This document shows positions 6,192 to 53,218 of a stretch of DNA of 64,000 nucleotides, piece after piece. The position numbers and the translations under genes are program-made. The number at the start of each line of letters is the position of its first letter. Within the stretch, counting starts at the first letter, position 1. The DNA comes from Geobacter sp. AOG1 (GTDB lineage Bacteria; Desulfobacterota; Desulfuromonadia; Geobacterales; Geobacteraceae), in assembly GCF_019972315.1 (NCBI RefSeq), contig NZ_BLIZ01000001.1, forward strand, positions 2,765,521-2,829,520, given 5' to 3'. The notes beneath the pieces are model-generated. The model saw only the letters and a list, made by a program, of their open reading frames with translations, did not search any database and had not been told where the DNA came from.

Positions 6192-8063
6192 GTGAGAGCG
6201 ATTCTTTCTGCGTTTATTCTCCTGGTGGCAGCCGTGAGTTCGGCTGCCGCATCCGGCGATATTCAGGCAATGGCCGCCGGCTCCGCCCACACGGTTGTCC
6301 TGAAAAACAACGGGACGGTCTGGGCATGGGGGGATAACTATTTTGGCCAGCTCGGCGACGGCACGGTCACGGAGCGCCATACTCCGGTCCAGGTGACGGG
6401 CCTTGCCGGGATAACCGCAATTGCTGCAGGGGATTATCATACCGTTGCCCTGAGAAACGACGGGACGGTCTGGAGCTGGGGGGACAACTACTGTGGCCAA
6501 CTCGGTGACGGTACGACTACGGAGCGCCAATCACCGGTCCAGGTGACGGGCCTTGCCGGGGTGACGGCCATAGCCGGAGGGGATGCGCATACCATCGCCC
6601 TGAGAAACGACGGAACGGTCTGGGCCTGGGGTGACAATTATTACGGCCAACTCGGCGACCGCACGGTCACGGAGCGCCATACTCCAGTCCAGGTGACGGG
6701 TCTTGCTGGGATTATCGCCATTGCCGCGGGATATTGCTATACGGTTGCCCTGAGAAACGACGGGACGGTCTGGGCCTGGGGTATCAACTCTTACGGACAG
6801 CTTGGCGATGGAAAGACCCTTGAACGCCACGCCCCGGTCCAGGTGACGGGCCTAGCCGGGGTGACTGCCATTGAAGCGGGATGGTCTCATACGGTTGCTC
6901 AGAGAAACGACGGGACGGTCTGGGCCTGGGGGGACAACTATTATGGCCAGCTCGGTGACGGAACGACCACGGAGAGCCATACTCCGGTCCAGGTAACGGG
7001 CATTGCCGATGTCATCAAAGTTGTGGCGGGGGGAGTCCATACGGTAGCCCTGAAAAACGACGGGTCGGTCTGGAGCTGGGGAGATAACAGTTCTGGCCAG
7101 CTCGGCAACGGGACGACTGCAGAAAGTGATGCTCCGACCCGCGTGACGGGTCTTGATGGGGTAATCGCCGTTGTTGCGGGAGATTTTCATACCGTTGCCC
7201 TGAAAAGCGACGGGACGGCCTGGGCCTGGGGGGATAACTATTATGGCCAAGTCGGTGACGGAACGACCACACAGCGTCGTTCCCCGACATTAGTCCGTAC
7301 ACTTGCACAACCTGCCAAGATAGGTGTCTTTAGTGAGGGGTACTGGTATCTCGATACGAACCGGAGCGGGGTGTGGGACGGCACCCCTGCAGATGTCCTC
7401 GGCATTTTCGGCCTTGGTATTGCCGGAGCAATCCCCGTTGTCGGTGACTGGAACGGTTCCGGGACCACCAAGTTCGGCGTCTATGATCCTGCTACGACCA
7501 CCTGGTATCTGGATTACAACGGCGATGGGCAGTGGAATGGCGCGACCGACAAATCATACTGGTTCGGTATTCCCGGTAGCATTCCCGTAACTGGAGATTG
7601 GAACGGGAGTGGCAGCACCAAGATAGGCGTCTATGACCCCGCTACGACTATTTGGTATCTGGACTACAACGGCGATGGACAGTGGACCGGCACGCCGACC
7701 GACAAATCATACTGGTTCGGTATTTCAGGAGCCATTCCTGTTACCGGAGATTGGAACGGTAGCGGTCCTGCCAAGATCGGCATCTACGACCCTGCTACCG
7801 CCAGATGGTATCTGGATTACAACGGTGATGGACAGTGGAGCGGCACGTCGACCGACAAGTCCTACGTCTTCGGTTTTGCAGGTGTCAAACCCGTAACCGG
7901 AGATTGGAACGGCAGCGGTACCACCAAGATCGGCGTCTATGATTCTGCCACTGCCACATGGTACCTGGACTACAATGGTAACGGCTTCTGGGAAGGACAA
8001 CCCCTGGACACCACTGCCAATTTCGGCCTCACGGGTTCGACTCCGATTATAGGGAAATGGTAG
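6192..8063 (+). CDS. Exported RCC1-repeat protein with C-terminal VCBS/FG-GAP-like repeats
   Basis: 623 aa. The GTG at 6192 is chosen because GGAGG sits 5 nt upstream and a signal peptide (VRAILSAFILLVAAVSSAAA) begins exactly there. Seven RCC1-type repeats of about 50 aa follow (consensus HTVALRNDGTVWAWGDNY then GQLGDGTT), predicting a seven-bladed beta-propeller. About 245 C-terminal residues then hold five roughly 50-aa repeats (IPVTGDWNGSG, KIGVYDPAT, WYLDYNGDGQW) with Asp/Asn/Gly-rich turns typical of calcium-binding beta-propellers. The 150-bp DNA units are also very similar, which suggests recent tandem expansion. It is probably a surface or extracellular binding protein; its ligand is unknown. 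Confidence 0.85.
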   Translation: MRAILSAFILLVAAVSSAAASGDIQAMAAGSAHTVVLKNNGTVWAWGDNYFGQLGDGTVTERHTPVQVTGLAGITAIAAGDYHTVALRNDGTVWSWGDNYCGQLGDGTTTERQSPVQVTGLAGVTAIAGGDAHTIALRNDGTVWAWGDNYYGQLGDRTVTERHTPVQVTGLAGIIAIAAGYCYTVALRNDGTVWAWGINSYGQLGDGKTLERHAPVQVTGLAGVTAIEAGWSHTVAQRNDGTVWAWGDNYYGQLGDGTTTESHTPVQVTGIADVIKVVAGGVHTVALKNDGSVWSWGDNSSGQLGNGTTAESDAPTRVTGLDGVIAVVAGDFHTVALKSDGTAWAWGDNYYGQVGDGTTTQRRSPTLVRTLAQPAKIGVFSEGYWYLDTNRSGVWDGTPADVLGIFGLGIAGAIPVVGDWNGSGTTKFGVYDPATTTWYLDYNGDGQWNGATDKSYWFGIPGSIPVTGDWNGSGSTKIGVYDPATTIWYLDYNGDGQWTGTPTDKSYWFGISGAIPVTGDWNGSGPAKIGIYDPATARWYLDYNGDGQWSGTSTDKSYVFGFAGVKPVTGDWNGSGTTKIGVYDSATATWYLDYNGNGFWEGQPLDTTANFGLTGSTPIIGKW

Positions 8064-47894: not shown

Positions 47895-47954
47895 CAGGGA
47901 CACGGGACTGGCAAAACCTCGAACCCGGAACCTTGGGTCCTGTGGGTCCTCAGG
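47895..47954. repeat. GC-rich dispersed repeat, copy 6 (degenerate)
   Basis: It reads CAGGGACACGGGACTGGC then CGAACCCGGAACCTTGGGTC, related to the family at 14131. It lies at the left edge of the 133-nt repeat. Confidence 0.45.
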
Positions 47955-48087
47955 GCGAGGGGGTAAACCAGCACCTTCTTCCATCCACCTCTTACTCCCT
48001 CATCCGCCCTTCGGGCACCTTCTCCCCAAGGAGAAGGTATTGAATCTTACCCTCTCCTTTAGGCGCTGTGGGTCTTCAGGGTGAGGG
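47955..48087. repeat. 133-nt direct repeat, left of DUF559 gene
   Basis: It starts GCGAGGGGGTAAACCAGCAC and contains TCATCCGCCCTTCGGGCACC and a CTTCTCCCCAAGGAGAAG hairpin. The copy at 48567-48701 is nearly identical, differing at only a handful of positions by eye. Both are in the same orientation and flank the DUF559 gene. Confidence 0.9.
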
Positions 48088-48116: not shown

Positions 48117-48467
48117 CTAAGGGAAAAGTTCTCCGTGCAACCTTTCTAACACGCAATCCAGATCGTGCAGCACCTCATGATTCCAGAATCTCAGTACCTT
48201 GATCCCCGCTCCTACCAGAATCCTCGTCCGCTCCTCGTCATACGCCTTCTGTTCCTCATCCCCATGGCCGCCGCCGTCCAGTTCGACCGCCAGATGGGCA
48301 TCATGACAGTAGAAATCCAGAATATACCCGCCACACGGATGCTGGCGACGAAACTTCACGCCGCAGAAACGACGGTCGCGCAACAGATGCCAGAGGAGCT
48401 GTTCGGCATCGGTCAGTTGCCCACGCAGCGAACGGGCATTGGCGAGGATGTGCGGCGGGATCGGCAT
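48117..48467 (-). CDS. DUF559 endonuclease-domain protein (Vsr-like fold)
   Basis: 116 aa, typical length. It has LRGQLTDAEQLLWHLLRDRR, VKFRRQHPCGGYILDFYC, the acidic HLAVELDGGGH motif, and VLRFWNHEVLHDLDCVLERL, the PD-(D/E)XK core shared with very-short-patch-repair nucleases. The biological role of DUF559 proteins is not established. The gene lies between two 133-nt direct repeats and separates the tviB-like gene from cpsB, with no clear promoter of its own. Confidence 0.87.
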   Translation of the reverse strand: MPIPPHILANARSLRGQLTDAEQLLWHLLRDRRFCGVKFRRQHPCGGYILDFYCHDAHLAVELDGGGHGDEEQKAYDEERTRILVGAGIKVLRFWNHEVLHDLDCVLERLHGELFP

Positions 48468-48479
48468 GTCTCTTCTCTT

Positions 48480-48566
48480 ATCCCCTCACCCCTGCCCCTC
48501 TCCCCTAGGGCGAGGGGATAAAAGTCTTACCCTCTCTCTAGGGGAGAGGGTGGTGCAAAGCACCGG
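48480..48566. repeat. CCCTCTCCCCTAGGG-type inverted repeats
   Basis: CCCTCACCCCTGCCCCTCTC, CCCTAGGGCGAGGGG and CTCTAGGGGAGAGGG form nested inverted repeats directly upstream of the DUF559 start. They may form a strong hairpin in either transcript. Confidence 0.7.
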
Positions 48567-48701
48567 GTGAGGGGGTAAACCAGCACATTCTTCTATCCAC
48601 CTCTCACTCCCTCATCCGCCCTTCGGGCACCTTCTCCCCAAGGAGAAGGTATTGAATCTTACCATCTCCTTTAGGCGCTGTGGGTCCTCAGGGCGAGGGG
48701 G
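48567..48701. repeat. 133-nt direct repeat, right of DUF559 gene
   Basis: Second copy of the unit at 47955. Its right end overlaps the last codons of cpsB (stop at 48688), so the C-terminal codons of that gene are encoded by the repeat. Confidence 0.9.
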
Positions 48702-49524
48702 CACCTTGAACCAAGATTTCCCTTAACCCTTCTACATTATGCCCATCGCTCCCGAAGCAGCTATAGAGCCCCATCTCCCGCATCCGCCCGGCACTGGCCC
48801 GTGCCCGGTCACCGTAGTAACCGGCGAAGCTCCCCAGGTTGCCCTGGAACTGGCAGTCGAGGTCAATCAAATAGTCCAGAAGACTATTGGATTGACCGTT
48901 CAACGTTCTATGTTCAACGTTCAACGTTTGTGAGTCAAGCAAGTCGCCGTCTTGAAACCTTGAACCTTGAACCTTGAACCACTCCCACACCCCCTGTTTG
49001 GTGGGGAGAGGGAGTGCAAAGAGCTTGCAGCGCTCGGGGTGGGCGATGAGGGGGATATATCCCTTCTGGCGGATGCGGTACAGGGTTTCTTTGACCAGCT
49101 CCACCGGCGCGTGGTGGGGGATCTCCACGAGGATGAATTGTGTATCACCCAGCGGCAGGGGATCCTGCAGATAGTGGGGGAGGAATTCGTCCAGGTAGTA
49201 TTCCCGCCCCGCGTGAAGTTTCAGCTCGATCCCCTCCCGGTCCAGCGCCGTCTGCAACTCCCCTACCCCGCTCCGCACCGCCTCGTTTCCCGCGTCGTAG
49301 ACCCCCTTGATCAGGTGGGGGGTGCAATGCACCGTCTCATATCCCGCATCCCGCAGCAACCGCGCCATCTCTATCGATTCGGCCATGGTGGAGGGACCGT
49401 CATCGAGTGATGGCAACAGATGGCAATGCCAATCTGTTGCTGAGTTTTGAGTTTTGAGTTTTGAGTTTTGAGTTGTCAAACTTACTCTATCGCCAAAGAA
49501 TGGTTTAGCTTCACGATTACTCAT
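48688..49524 (-). CDS. cpsB: CpsB/YwqE-type PHP-domain tyrosine phosphatase, with in-frame repeat insertions
   Basis: 278 aa. The PHP core is clear: DWHCHLLPSLDDGPSTMAES, the VHCTPHLIKGVYDAGNEAV block, LHAGREYYLDE, ILVEIPHHAPVELV, LIAHPERCKLF and FGSDGHN. It should dephosphorylate the Wzc-like kinase encoded just upstream. About 28 residues before the core (MSNREAKPFFGD..., then TQNSKLKTQNS) come from dispersed repeats: the start codon lies in an ATTACTCATGATT-type unit, followed by TTTTGAG tandem units. A second insert of about 35 residues (FKVQGSRFQDGD...TLNVEHRTLNGQS) follows the HPER motif and derives from GGTTCAAGGTTC/AACGTTGAAC repeats. Activity is probably kept because catalytic motifs are intact. 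Confidence 0.85.
   Translation of the reverse strand: MSNREAKPFFGDRVSLTTQNSKLKTQNSATDWHCHLLPSLDDGPSTMAESIEMARLLRDAGYETVHCTPHLIKGVYDAGNEAVRSGVGELQTALDREGIELKLHAGREYYLDEFLPHYLQDPLPLGDTQFILVEIPHHAPVELVKETLYRIRQKGYIPLIAHPERCKLFALPLPTKQGVWEWFKVQGSRFQDGDLLDSQTLNVEHRTLNGQSNSLLDYLIDLDCQFQGNLGSFAGYYGDRARASAGRMREMGLYSCFGSDGHNVEGLREILVQGAPSP
48897..48980. repeat. TTCAACGTTC / TTGAACCTTGAACC repeat cluster inside cpsB
   Basis: The plus strand shows CAACGTTCTATGTTCAACGT TCAACG and, 40 nt later, CTTGAAACCTTGAACCTTGA. The same type of sequence occurs at 52733-52798 and 53176-53200 around the four-helix-bundle gene. Here it lies within the cpsB coding frame without breaking it. Confidence 0.8.
49439..49475. 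repeat. TTTTGAG tandem repeat inside cpsB
   Basis: About five tandem TTTTGAG units. With 7 nt per unit, any change in copy number other than a multiple of three would shift the cpsB frame near its start. Confidence 0.85.
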
Positions 49525-49632
49525 GATTTAAAACCTTAAAGCTTTGTTGCCTTCATCATAAGAAATCTTGAGGTAATCATGTGCTAAGAATGGCTTAAAA
49601 TCATTTTGCTTCACGATTACTCATGATTTATA
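49508..49632. repeat. ATTACTCATGATT repeat family, left units
   Basis: One full unit (CACGATTACTCATGATTTAA ... AATCTTGAGGTAATCATG, 49508-49581) and a partial unit (49606-49632) lie between cpsB and the second GxxExxY gene. The full unit supplies the ATG and AAGG of cpsB on the minus strand. Confidence 0.8.
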
Positions 49633-49650
49633 AACACAAATAATTAGAGT

Positions 49651-50031
49651 TTAAGAGCCTGATTTTACGTACTTCCTCTTTATCTCTACACTCTTACCAA
49701 AATTAATTAACAGTCCCAGTTCTATACCAGTTGCTTTTAGATAATTCTTGACCTGCAATTCATGGACATCAGTCAATTTTTCTAGAGCCTTTAACTCCAA
49801 AATTACTGAATCTTCGACAAGAAGATCGGCGAAATATTCCCCAACGACATTACCTTTGTATTTGACAGCGATTGGTTTTTGAGCTTCGACCTTCAGTCCA
49901 CGATTTTTTAACTCTTCAAAGAATGCGTTCTCATAGACTTTTTCAAGAAAACCACTTCCAAGAACCGAATGGACTTCAAAGGCACAGTTGATAATTTGCT
50001 CGGTTAATAGATCTGACGATAGAGCCTTCAT
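49651..50031 (-). CDS. GxxExxY family protein, second copy
   Basis: 126 aa. GSGFLEKVYENAFFEELKNR is the signature; VKYKGNVVGEYFADLLVEDS and VILELKALEKLTDVHELQVK carry the nuclease-like acidic core; LINFGKSVEIKRKYV ends the domain. It is about the same length as the copy at 46032 but clearly diverged, so it is not a local duplication. The ATG at 50031 follows GGAGAAAGG. It lies between wzc-like and cpsB genes, flanked on both sides by units of one repeat family. Confidence 0.86.
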   Translation of the reverse strand: MKALSSDLLTEQIINCAFEVHSVLGSGFLEKVYENAFFEELKNRGLKVEAQKPIAVKYKGNVVGEYFADLLVEDSVILELKALEKLTDVHELQVKNYLKATGIELGLLINFGKSVEIKRKYVKSGS

Positions 50032-50040
50032 GTTGCCTTT

Positions 50041-50346
50041 CTCCAAAAAACCTCACCCTTAATTTGCTTCTCGATTACTCATGATTTTAAAACCTTGAAG
50101 TATTTTTGCCTTAATCACGAAAAATCTTGGGGTAATCATGCCTTAAACCTATTTTTGCTTCTCGATTACTCATGATTCTAAACCTTAAAGATTTGTTGCC
50201 TTCATCATGAGAAATCTTGAGGTAATCATGAGGCTAAAAACTCCAAAAAACCTCACCCTTAATTGCTTCTCGATTACTCATGATTCCAAACCTTAAAGAT
50301 TTGTTGCCTTCATCATGAGAAATCTTGAGGTAATCATGAGGCTAAA
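50041..50346. repeat. ATTACTCATGATT repeat family, right array of three units
   Basis: Units at about 50065-50140, 50156-50236 and 50263-50346 share TTGCTTCTCGATTACTCATG, CCTTAAAGATTTGTTGCCTT and AATCTTGAGGTAATCATG. A separate string (CTCCAAAAAACCTCACCCTT) occurs at 50041 and again at 50241. It matches the leader end of the GxxExxY gene, as if that edge had been copied along. The array fills the whole 344-nt spacer. Confidence 0.85.
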
Positions 50347-50375: not shown

Positions 50376-52721
50376 CTAGAAAAACCGCCTCCACCAAGGC
50401 TTCGCCTTGGCAGGCGCTTTTTCGTCATCCCCATAATACCCATACCCGTAACCATATCCGTATTTGTAGCCGTAGTAGCCGCCGTAGGCCATGCCGCGGC
50501 CGGTTTTGTCGTTGATGACGAGTCCGGCTACGGGGGCCTGGACGGCGCCGAGGAGTTCGCGCATGCGGATGGCAGCCTTGGCGGGGATGCGGCCGGTTTC
50601 CAGAACCACCAGGACCATGTCGGCCAGGGTGGTGAGGACCGGCGCGTCGGTGACGGCGAGGACCGGGGGGGCGTCGATGACGATCTGGTCGTACTCTTCC
50701 CGGAGTGCGTCGAGCAGGTCGCGCATGGCAACGGAGCCGAGGAGCTCGGAGGGGTTGGGGGGGGTGGTGCCGGCGGCAAGCAGGTGGAGGTTGGGGATCT
50801 CGGTGGTGTGGACGGCGGCGGCGAAGGGGGTGTCCTTCGCCAGGACCTCGGAGAGCCCCGGAATCTTCTCGACCCGCAGCTTGTCGTGGAGGGAGGAGCG
50901 GCGCATGTCGCAGTCGATGAGAAGGACCCGGGTACCGGTCTGGGCGATGGTTATGGCCAGGTTGGCGGAGACGGTGGATTTCCCCTCACCGGGGAAGGAG
51001 CTGGTAATGACGAGCACCCGCTTGTCCCGGTTGATGGCGGAGAAGTGGATGCCGGTCCGGAGGCTGCGAAACGCCTCGGCCACGGACGACCGCGGGTCGG
51101 TATGGCTGACGATGGCCTCGGTGCCGGTGCTCTCAGCATCGACCTTGCCGATGTGGGGGATGGTCCCCAGGTGGGCGAATCCGAGGATCCGCTTCGCCTC
51201 TTCGGCCTCCTTGATGGTGTCGTCCAGATACTCCTGAAAGAAGGCGAGGCCGACCCCGAGCATGCAGCCGACCAGGAGGCCGAGGAGGAGGTTTTTCTTC
51301 TTCTGGGGCTTGATGGGGAGGTCGGGGGCGATGGCCGGGTCGACGATGTTGATGTTGCTGATGGTGGAGGCCTTGGCGATGCGGGCCTCCTCATGCTTCT
51401 GGAGGAGGAAGGTGTAGATGTCGGCGTTCACCTTGGCAAGCCGCATGTAGCGGGCCAGGTCGCGCTCGGCGGCCGGGAGCTGGCGCAGGGTCCCCTCGTA
51501 ACCGGCCAGCCGCCTGGTGACGTCCGACTCCTGCCGGGTCAGGTTCTTCAGGCCGGTCTCGTAGGTGGCCTGGATCTTCCGCAGCAGCTCGTCGATCTGC
51601 CCCTGGACGGTCTTGACGGCAGGGTGGTCCTTCGTGTAATCCTCCAGGAGCGCCCGCTTCTGCACCTCCAGTTCGGCCAGCCGGGAGGCCATCCCTGCCA
51701 CCAGGGGGTCGTCCTTCAAGACCGCCGGCGAATAGGTCCTCCCCCGGGACATGCTCTCCTTGAGGGAGGCCAGGGCGAACTCCAGCTGCTTTTTCTGGAT
51801 GCTGATCCCCGCCCGCTCCTTTTCCACGTCGGAGAACTTGTTGATGAGGGCCTGCGCCTCGGTGTCCAGCTGCACTACCCCGGCCGAGCTCTTGTACTGC
51901 TGGAGGTCCGACTCTGCCTTCCCCAGTTCGTCCTTGATCCCGGTCAGCTGTTCTTCGACGAAGTTGACGGTACGGCTCGCCTCTTCGGTCTTGAAGGCGA
52001 TGCTCTGATCCAGGTAGGACTGGACCAGGGTATTGACGATGTCCCGGGCAAGAGCGGGGTCGGTGTTGCTGTAGGCGATCCGGATGATGTTGGTCTTCTT
52101 CCCCACCTCCGTCGCCTTGATGCCGCTCCGCAGGCCGGCGACCGTTCCGTTGAAGTTGAGCTGGCTCAGCTGGAAGCTGTCCCCCTCTTTCCCCTTGACC
52201 TGGACCAGGAGGGTCAGCCTCGGTGACTGGAAGAGCACGCCGCTTTTGCCGCTGCCGACGGCCTTGCCGTCGGCGTCCTTGACCGTGTAACTGTCGGGGC
52301 CGGTGAGGGTGACGGTGCAGGAGGGGCGCTTCGCCGTTGTAGCGAACTCAAGGACCTTGTGGGAAAGCTCGGGAGCGGCATCTTCCACCCGCCAGTCCAG
52401 GTGGAGTCTTCGTACCACCTGTTCGGCGATGGTGCGGGATTTGAGGATCTCGATCTCCGCGTCGATGGGGTTGTTGCTGGCCAGGAGGGAGAGCTCACCC
52501 AGCACGCCGCTCTTCGCCTTGTCGTCCTTGACATAGAGGGTGGCGGTCGCCTCGTAGATGGGGCGCATGGCGAAGGTATAGAGGGCGACGCCGATAAACA
52601 CCGCGCAGAAAGCGACGAGGAAGGTTCGCCGCCGGCGCATGATGACGTTGATGTAATCGGAAAGGTGGACTTCCTGGGGCTGGTTGGGCTGGGGGGCCGG
52701 GGGTTGGACTATGGGGTTCAT
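50376..52721 (-). CDS. wzc: Wzc-like polysaccharide co-polymerase and BY-type tyrosine kinase
   Basis: 781 aa. An N-terminal Wzz domain (LSDYINVIMRRRRTFLVAFC first membrane helix) is followed by a long periplasmic coiled coil with GNVR-type segments, a second helix (KKKNLLLGLLVGCMLGVGLA near 480), and a cytoplasmic kinase. Kinase motifs are Walker A SSFPGEGKSTVSANLA, Walker A' VLLIDCDMRRSS and Walker B YDQIVIDAPP. The C-terminus is a Tyr cluster (GGYYGYKYGYGYGYGYYG), the autophosphorylation tail. It controls chain length and export with Wza and is reversed by CpsB. The ATG at 52721 is chosen near the family start. Confidence 0.93.
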   Translation of the reverse strand: MNPIVQPPAPQPNQPQEVHLSDYINVIMRRRRTFLVAFCAVFIGVALYTFAMRPIYEATATLYVKDDKAKSGVLGELSLLASNNPIDAEIEILKSRTIAEQVVRRLHLDWRVEDAAPELSHKVLEFATTAKRPSCTVTLTGPDSYTVKDADGKAVGSGKSGVLFQSPRLTLLVQVKGKEGDSFQLSQLNFNGTVAGLRSGIKATEVGKKTNIIRIAYSNTDPALARDIVNTLVQSYLDQSIAFKTEEASRTVNFVEEQLTGIKDELGKAESDLQQYKSSAGVVQLDTEAQALINKFSDVEKERAGISIQKKQLEFALASLKESMSRGRTYSPAVLKDDPLVAGMASRLAELEVQKRALLEDYTKDHPAVKTVQGQIDELLRKIQATYETGLKNLTRQESDVTRRLAGYEGTLRQLPAAERDLARYMRLAKVNADIYTFLLQKHEEARIAKASTISNINIVDPAIAPDLPIKPQKKKNLLLGLLVGCMLGVGLAFFQEYLDDTIKEAEEAKRILGFAHLGTIPHIGKVDAESTGTEAIVSHTDPRSSVAEAFRSLRTGIHFSAINRDKRVLVITSSFPGEGKSTVSANLAITIAQTGTRVLLIDCDMRRSSLHDKLRVEKIPGLSEVLAKDTPFAAAVHTTEIPNLHLLAAGTTPPNPSELLGSVAMRDLLDALREEYDQIVIDAPPVLAVTDAPVLTTLADMVLVVLETGRIPAKAAIRMRELLGAVQAPVAGLVINDKTGRGMAYGGYYGYKYGYGYGYGYYGDDEKAPAKAKPWWRRFF

Positions 52722-52732
52722 AAAATTCCAGT

Positions 52733-52798
52733 TCAATGTTCAAGGTTCAATATTCTAGGTTATTTTTCAACGTTCAAGGTTCAAAGTTCAAGGTTATT
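52733..52798. repeat. TTCAAGG repeat cluster, left of four-helix-bundle gene
   Basis: CAATGTTCAAGGTTCAATAT, CAACGTTCAAGGTTCAAAGT and TCAAGGTTA occur in a row. The right side of the gene (53176-53200) has the complement (AACCTTGAACGTTGAACC), so the gene is bracketed by inverted copies. Confidence 0.8.
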
Positions 52799-53159
52799 TT
52801 ATTCTTTCAGAATTCCTAAGGTAGCGGATGAAACCGTTCAGGAGGTTGCTCAGTCTGGTGGATTGTTCCTGGATAGCATTGCATTGTTCGCTGTCCAGGT
52901 AGCCAATATCCTGAGCTGCATAAGTGAGGCTTCGCACTTCGGAAACTGAACCACGGGAAATGATCAGAAATTGGATAAACTCCTTGTTGCTGCCCCTGTC
53001 AAAACCTTCTGCGATATTTGCCATTGTCGAAACTGCAGCACGCTGAATCTGGTCCCTGAAACCATAATCCCTGCATTCGGCAAACCGGGTGTATACATTC
53101 TTAACCAGAAGACGTGCTTCCTTCCAGGCTTCTATATCCTCGAAACGCTCAATTCTCAT
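52794..53159 (-). CDS. Four-helix-bundle protein of the 23S-intervening-sequence (S23/IVP) family
   Basis: 121 aa. MRIERFEDIEAWKEARLLVK, the FRDQIQRAAVSTMANIAEGF signature, and EFIQFLIISRGSVSEVRSLT then LDSEQCNAIQEQSTRLSNLL match the family found in 23S rRNA intervening sequences and widely as free genes. The function is unknown. It lies between wza and the Wzc-like gene, in the same direction, and is bracketed by inverted TTCAAGG-type repeats. Confidence 0.87.
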   Translation of the reverse strand: MRIERFEDIEAWKEARLLVKNVYTRFAECRDYGFRDQIQRAAVSTMANIAEGFDRGSNKEFIQFLIISRGSVSEVRSLTYAAQDIGYLDSEQCNAIQEQSTRLSNLLNGFIRYLRNSERIK

Positions 53160-53175
53160 ATCTCAACCCAATGTA

Positions 53176-53200
53176 TTCAACCTTGAACGTTGAACCTGAC
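53176..53200. repeat. TTCAAGG-type repeat, inverted copy right of four-helix-bundle gene
   Basis: It reads ACCTTGAACGTTGAACCTG on the plus strand, the reverse complement of the left cluster at 52733. Confidence 0.7.
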
Positions 53201-53218
53201 ACGCTTTGCGCGTCAGCG

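Follow-up and report, generated by a model that had tools for sequence, protein, structure and literature searches.

Tandem repeats with a period of seven bases (heptads) are known from several bacterial systems. In Escherichia coli K1, the O-acetyltransferase gene neuO is switched by slippage of an AAGACTC array that holds 3–53 units, most commonly 20, and the gene was OFF in 42 of 64 complete genomes (PMC13001214). In the 23S rRNA intervening sequence of Coxiella, an S23 open reading frame (ORF) lies in a stem, and tandem heptamers (GACAGAT) that vary in number by strain precede it (PMC4990558). Heptanucleotide repeats have also been described in G. metallireducens (PMC2700814) and in Xanthomonas and Nostoc (PMC4692102, which cites earlier findings in Calothrix). 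In the portions of these two papers available to us, the tandem units lie within as well as between genes, as they do here, and are treated as regulatory or quadruplex elements, with no tie to S23 genes and no inverted pairs bracketing a gene.

Here we describe heptads in cpsB, a gene of Geobacter sp. AOG1 (genome a single contig of 3.68 Mb), based on a stretch of 64,000 nucleotides that we call the window. Profile searches place cpsB in an exopolysaccharide operon that includes a wzc-like kinase gene and a wza-like export gene, with an S23 gene in the same operon (Table 1). As in neuO, a capsule gene has an array close to its 5′ end. The unit, AAAACTC, is one base from AAGACTC, and all three coding-strand frames of the array are open. 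On the other hand, it has about 5 units where neuO commonly has 20, the enzyme is a different one, and the cpsB genes of relatives are nearly all ON. The S23 element of the operon resembles the 23S rRNA intervening sequences of Coxiella, Leptospira, and Brucella (PMC4990558) in having an S23 ORF between stem-forming terminal inverted repeats, but here heptad arrays with locus-specific units would form the stem arms. It was not filed as a 23S intervening sequence because it sits in a polysaccharide operon rather than in a 23S rRNA gene. The flanking of a gene by short inverted repeats, together with inverted pairs that lack a gene at other genomic sites, recalls REPIN-RAYT systems (PMC3116915), although the ends of the S23 elements share a period and not a sequence. 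Identity with REPIN-RAYT was rejected, as there is no tyrosine transposase (HUH/Y1) and the bracketed gene encodes a non-enzymatic four-helix bundle (PF05635).

Table 1. Coordinates, in the window, of cpsB, its neighbors, and the associated repeats.
Feature	Position	Strand	Remarks
cpsB ORF as listed	49524..48688	minus	278 aa; Pfam PF19567 (CpsB_CapC), E 3e-29
cpsB putative start, TTG (codon 16 of listed ORF)	49479-49477	minus	263 aa product; based on L007 and L009
5′ in-frame heptad array	49441..49474	minus	perfect, 4.9 copies of AAAACTC on coding strand; peptide TQNSKLKTQNS
Loop heptad array 1	48956..48980	minus	AAGGTTC units on coding strand; peptide KVQGSRF
Loop heptad array 2	48897..48928	minus	GAACGTT units, opposite in orientation to array 1; AGA in place of the stop-phase TGA
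133-nt repeat, copy overlapping cpsB end	48560..48700		second copy 47953-48087
DUF559 gene (PF04480), directly downstream of cpsB	48117..48467	minus	profile search
GxxExxY gene (PF13366), directly upstream of cpsB	49651..50046	minus	profile search
ATTACTCATGATT units, both sides of GxxExxY gene	49514..50287 (starts 49516, 49616, 50074, 50165, 50273)		
S23/four-helix-bundle gene (PF05635), same operon as cpsB	52794..53159	minus	profile search
Heptad array bracketing S23 gene	52731..52795		GTTCAAG/GTTCAAC units
Short inverted heptad array, other side of S23 gene	53179..53197		CTTGAAC units; stem in fold of 52720-53215

Heptad Arrays Inside cpsB

The first-pass annotation had described this ORF as a CpsB-type phosphatase gene with in-frame insertions of dispersed repeats at its start, middle, and end. 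The gene assignment holds. Both the profile match and the conserved metal-binding motifs place the product among the CpsB/CapC-type PHP phosphatases, kin of YwqE of B. subtilis and CpsB of Streptococcus, with a predicted phosphatase role. The catalytic motifs, described as intact, are indeed so: D31, H33, H35, E108, H162, D260, and H262 are invariant in a 23-sequence alignment. The domain, the motif residues, and the presence of a wzc-like kinase in the operon are shared with the YwqE/CpsB phosphatases of known structure (PDB 2wjd, 3qy6). Compared with solved YwqE, about 40 residues are extra in the segment that follows HPER, and there is also an N-terminal tail; heptads occur in both.

The start of the gene is probably not where it had been placed, at an ATG within a ATTACTCATGATT unit. 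A TTG at codon 16 is shared with two loci of the same genus, L007 and L009, and L009 has no alternative start between the upstream stop and the array. Thus, the TTG is probably the conserved start in the genus, the ATG is probably unused, and ATTACTCATGATT probably lies outside the CpsB protein. The repeat units said to follow the start codon directly (TTTTGAG, also written TGAGTTT) begin only at codon 17 of the listed ORF and extend to codon 28. In the sister species (genome G001, locus L008), TTA replaces TTG in the last copy of the cpsB 5′ region, and there is no usual in-frame start; from its sequence, this cpsB may be degenerate or switched OFF. Ahead of cpsB in the same genome, its 5′ end is repeated in two partial tandem copies that include the D-x-H-C-H codons (L092 = G001:C9, ~6731-6890, minus strand). 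The exact 15-mer CGATTACTCATGATT is found at the cpsB 5′ end in the window, and its single copy in the sister genome (G001:C9:506039-506053) is at the cpsB 3′ end.

The repeats at the two ends of the ORF were rejected as dispersed repeats from their genome-wide copy positions. The genome holds five copies of ATTACTCATGATT, every one of them beside the GxxExxY gene. Of the 133-nt repeat, which does overlap the end of cpsB as noted in the first pass, there are two full copies, and the DUF559 gene lies between them. These two kinds of repeat reach cpsB at its two ends because the gene is squeezed between the GxxExxY and DUF559 genes. Only the heptads are dispersed, with arrays genome-wide.

At a single score threshold, the window contains six arrays with period 7 and none with periods 4–6 or 8–13, and three of the six are in cpsB. 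In the alignment, they occupy two sites: one directly before the first metal-binding motif (D-x-H-x-H), the other in the loop that separates HPER from the helix preceding GCxFQGNLGS. Relatives in several genera bear extra segments at these same two places, made of heptads that differ in unit sequence and copy number (AAAACTC, AAAATTC, AAGGTTC with GAACGTT, CGAACGT, GTTCAGG, GAACCTC, and others), and this recurrence supports the in-frame insertion of repeats. Many other cpsB homologues have no arrays. The HPER–FQGN segment spans 60 codons here, compared with 40–54 in array-free homologues and up to 70 in those with arrays. The net excess of the block after HPER is therefore about 6–20 codons, not the 35 that had been proposed.

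The loop array retains a direct trace of its reading frame. A perfect GAACGTT array would give an in-frame TGA at array position 19, and this codon is altered in three species, to AGA in L001 and L007 (T to A) and to CGA in L010, from another genus (T to C); it is the sole array position changed in all three. Thus, the loop segment has been part of the translated protein on an evolutionary time scale, and on this comparison selection is keeping the array open and in frame. In an AlphaFold2 model the core is confident, whereas pLDDT falls below 50 at residues 8–26 and 189–205, and both heptad-bearing segments are predicted to be disordered and outside the PHP core. At the RNA level, the loop hairpin alone folds barely better than shuffled sequences (z −1.6), and it was set aside as a strong RNA structure.

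Period-7 Arrays and S23 Genes

Arrays bracket the S23 gene of the operon not only in the window but also in G001, G003, G005, and G007. In G001, G005, and G007, the array nearer cpsB is the cpsB 5′ array itself, and in inverted orientation it agrees at 0.94–1.00 with the array beyond S23. Across 50 cpsB loci, a 5′ heptad array was present in 9 of the 11 with S23 directly upstream vs 6 of the 39 without (Fisher P 8e-5, uncorrected for relatedness).

This association is directly observed well beyond cpsB. Inverted period-7 pairs within 200 bp were detected at 13 of 24 S23 loci from eight Geobacteraceae genomes, compared with none of 30 GxxExxY loci and none of 6,000 random segments. A further 29 S23 loci of the phylum gave 13 with such a pair, while periods 5, 6, 8, 9, 10, and 11 gave 0–2. 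All 63 loci, like the window, carry a PF05635 ORF; the left and right flanks of the same locus match in inverted orientation, as terminal inverted repeats with a predicted stem, in 45 of 63, compared with 2.2% for swapped flanks. About 18 of the 63 have no clear inverted match, and at L115 the arrays are in the same orientation. RNA folds of the S23 elements pair both arrays (z −3.2 in the window, z −6.1 in G007), and by analogy with the 23S rRNA intervening sequences the two brackets may act as stem arms. Heptads also lie on both sides of S23 in 10 of 10 plasmid loci (nine cyanobacterial, one from Riemerella). Matched inverted pairs bracket S23 genes in Desulfobacterota, on cyanobacterial plasmids, and on one Bacteroidota plasmid. 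Our literature search, which did not extend to subscription journals and most preprints, returned no paper tying S23 genes to heptads. On Pseudanabaena and Anabaena plasmids (L254 and L256), an S23 gene with heptad arrays is located between cas6 and cas4 in CRISPR operons.

Genome-level statistics were obtained by pattern search and from sampled stretches. Each congeneric genome holds 20–32 distinct arrays of one degenerate heptad type, of which 3, 7, 4, and 7 fall in the cps operon, where 0.02–0.04 would be expected. Most arrays in the Geobacter sp. AOG1 genome are intergenic and few are in frame within ORFs; apart from cpsB, in-frame arrays occur, for example, in an 830-aa ORF and in a 1,174-aa ORF that we take, on our own judgement without a family search, to be helicase-like. 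Sampled stretches gave 27 arrays in 800 kb from 12 genomes with S23 and 1 in 750 kb from 11 genomes without it (uncorrected for phylogeny); in the same stretches, the two groups did not differ at periods 5, 6, and 9 and differed weakly at period 8. A single repeat family was ruled out, given that units differ by locus while the period stays at 7. A TTTTGAG array is present in the leader of a prepilin-like ORF with a GFTLIELVVVLAILA motif (G000:C1:1259232; L099:1736-1753). At L092:11084-11281, a 198-bp array of GGTTGAA type reaches the contig end, and thus heptad arrays may break assemblies.

Other small genes are accompanied by repeats of other kinds. Around the DUF559 gene of the window and those in eight Geobacteraceae genomes (loci L202–L219), CCCTC...GGGAG hairpin repeats occur in variants that differ by locus; in the eight genomes they flank both sides in about 15 of 17, as judged by eye. 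About 19 of 30 GxxExxY genes (loci L142–L171, eight Geobacteraceae genomes) have an array of period 8 or 9 on at least one side, with units such as CACGAAAGA and CTCTGTGT, in contrast to the period of 7 at S23 genes; on four plasmids from other phyla, the GxxExxY genes have almost no arrays alongside. From these sequences, a repeat format of the GxxExxY family is supported in Geobacteraceae only, and the overall pattern suggests, without proving, that every small gene family owns a separate format.

Origin of the cpsB Arrays

We consider it probable, at roughly two chances in three, that the cpsB arrays are brackets or miniatures of S23 elements that have been tolerated and held in frame. The exopolysaccharide operon would have gathered small intervening genes, each with its own kind of repeat as brackets. 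The 5′ array would be the right-hand bracket of an S23 element or its remnant, and the loop pair, in which an AAGGTTC array is followed by a short spacer and an inverted GAACGTT array with no S23 ORF within, would be a miniature of the same arrangement. CpsB would tolerate both because each occupies a disordered segment that is not part of the PHP core, and selection would hold both open and in frame. Against an S23 origin, the 5′ array has no adjoining S23 gene here, although S23 lies directly upstream of cpsB in several relatives, and the two cpsB sites do not share a unit (AAAACTC vs AAGGTTC). The S23 loci with no clear inverted flank match, the arrays of like orientation at L115, and the weak fold of the loop hairpin also count against it. 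Descent from S23 elements is what we infer from the association, as is any mobility of the elements.

The array could instead make cpsB a contingency locus, in which slippage of AAAACTC shifts the frame and turns CpsB and exopolysaccharide control on or off. Tandem heptads in this early part of the coding sequence are frame-sensitive: gain or loss of one unit is computed to leave a product that lacks the PHP core, of 43–48 aa if read from the ATG or 28–33 aa if read from the TTG, and the frame shift proposed in the first-pass annotation would thus truncate CpsB. There is a precedent in neuO for heptad switching of a capsule gene (PMC13001214), S23-linked heptamer number varies between Coxiella strains (PMC4990558), perfect arrays occur in G001 and G007 as well as here, and L008 could be OFF. 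Yet about five units are few by the standard of neuO, and of nine relatives whose coding region contains an array, eight are ON, for which P is ~0.001 at the neuO ON fraction of ~1/3, in a sample that is small and non-independent. This is a species-level comparison, in which unit number does vary and one gene is possibly OFF. Moreover, the loop arrays are equally frame-breaking but lie mid-gene, an atypical position for a switch. From the sequences, phase switching of CpsB is possible but not supported, and we regard it as an unlikely explanation of the arrays; a slippage-based regulatory effect is possible as a secondary consequence.

Slightly less probable again is neutral slippage, by which period-7 arrays would arise anywhere, with no link to S23, and persist where proteins tolerate them. 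This explanation fits the spread of arrays over many intergenic sites and a small number of other genes, and also the free variation of unit sequences. However, it predicts no association with S23, whereas one is seen, and plain slippage would not be expected to produce a strict period of 7, inverted pairing, placement around S23 genes, S23-free genomes poor in arrays, or clustering in the cps operon. A function of the heptad peptides within CpsB, for instance in oligomerization or in binding the Wzc tyrosine cluster, is very improbable: a TQNSxLKTQNS-like sequence does recur before the PHP motif in several genera, and longer neuO repeats reportedly raise activity (earlier work cited in PMC13001214), but there is free variation in unit sequence and length, arrays are absent from many homologues, and the segments are predicted to be disordered.

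Beyond S23 brackets in cpsB, we tentatively propose, as an idea somewhat more likely to be wrong than right, that S23 genes organize heptad repeats across bacteria. Inverted-array ends would be known by their 7-base period and not by sequence, and S23 would make or spread arrays, including gene-less pairs that come to rest in tolerant coding regions such as cpsB. GxxExxY and DUF559 would have formats of their own. Heptanucleotide repeats have been known in cyanobacteria for decades, and later in Geobacter and Xanthomonas, with their cause missing; the cross-phylum tie to S23 offers a testable one. cpsB in turn illustrates how repeats can become protein, by settling in disordered segments with a single would-be stop codon altered. 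The tie would also give a role to the S23 family, which until now has mainly been an oddity of 23S rRNA.
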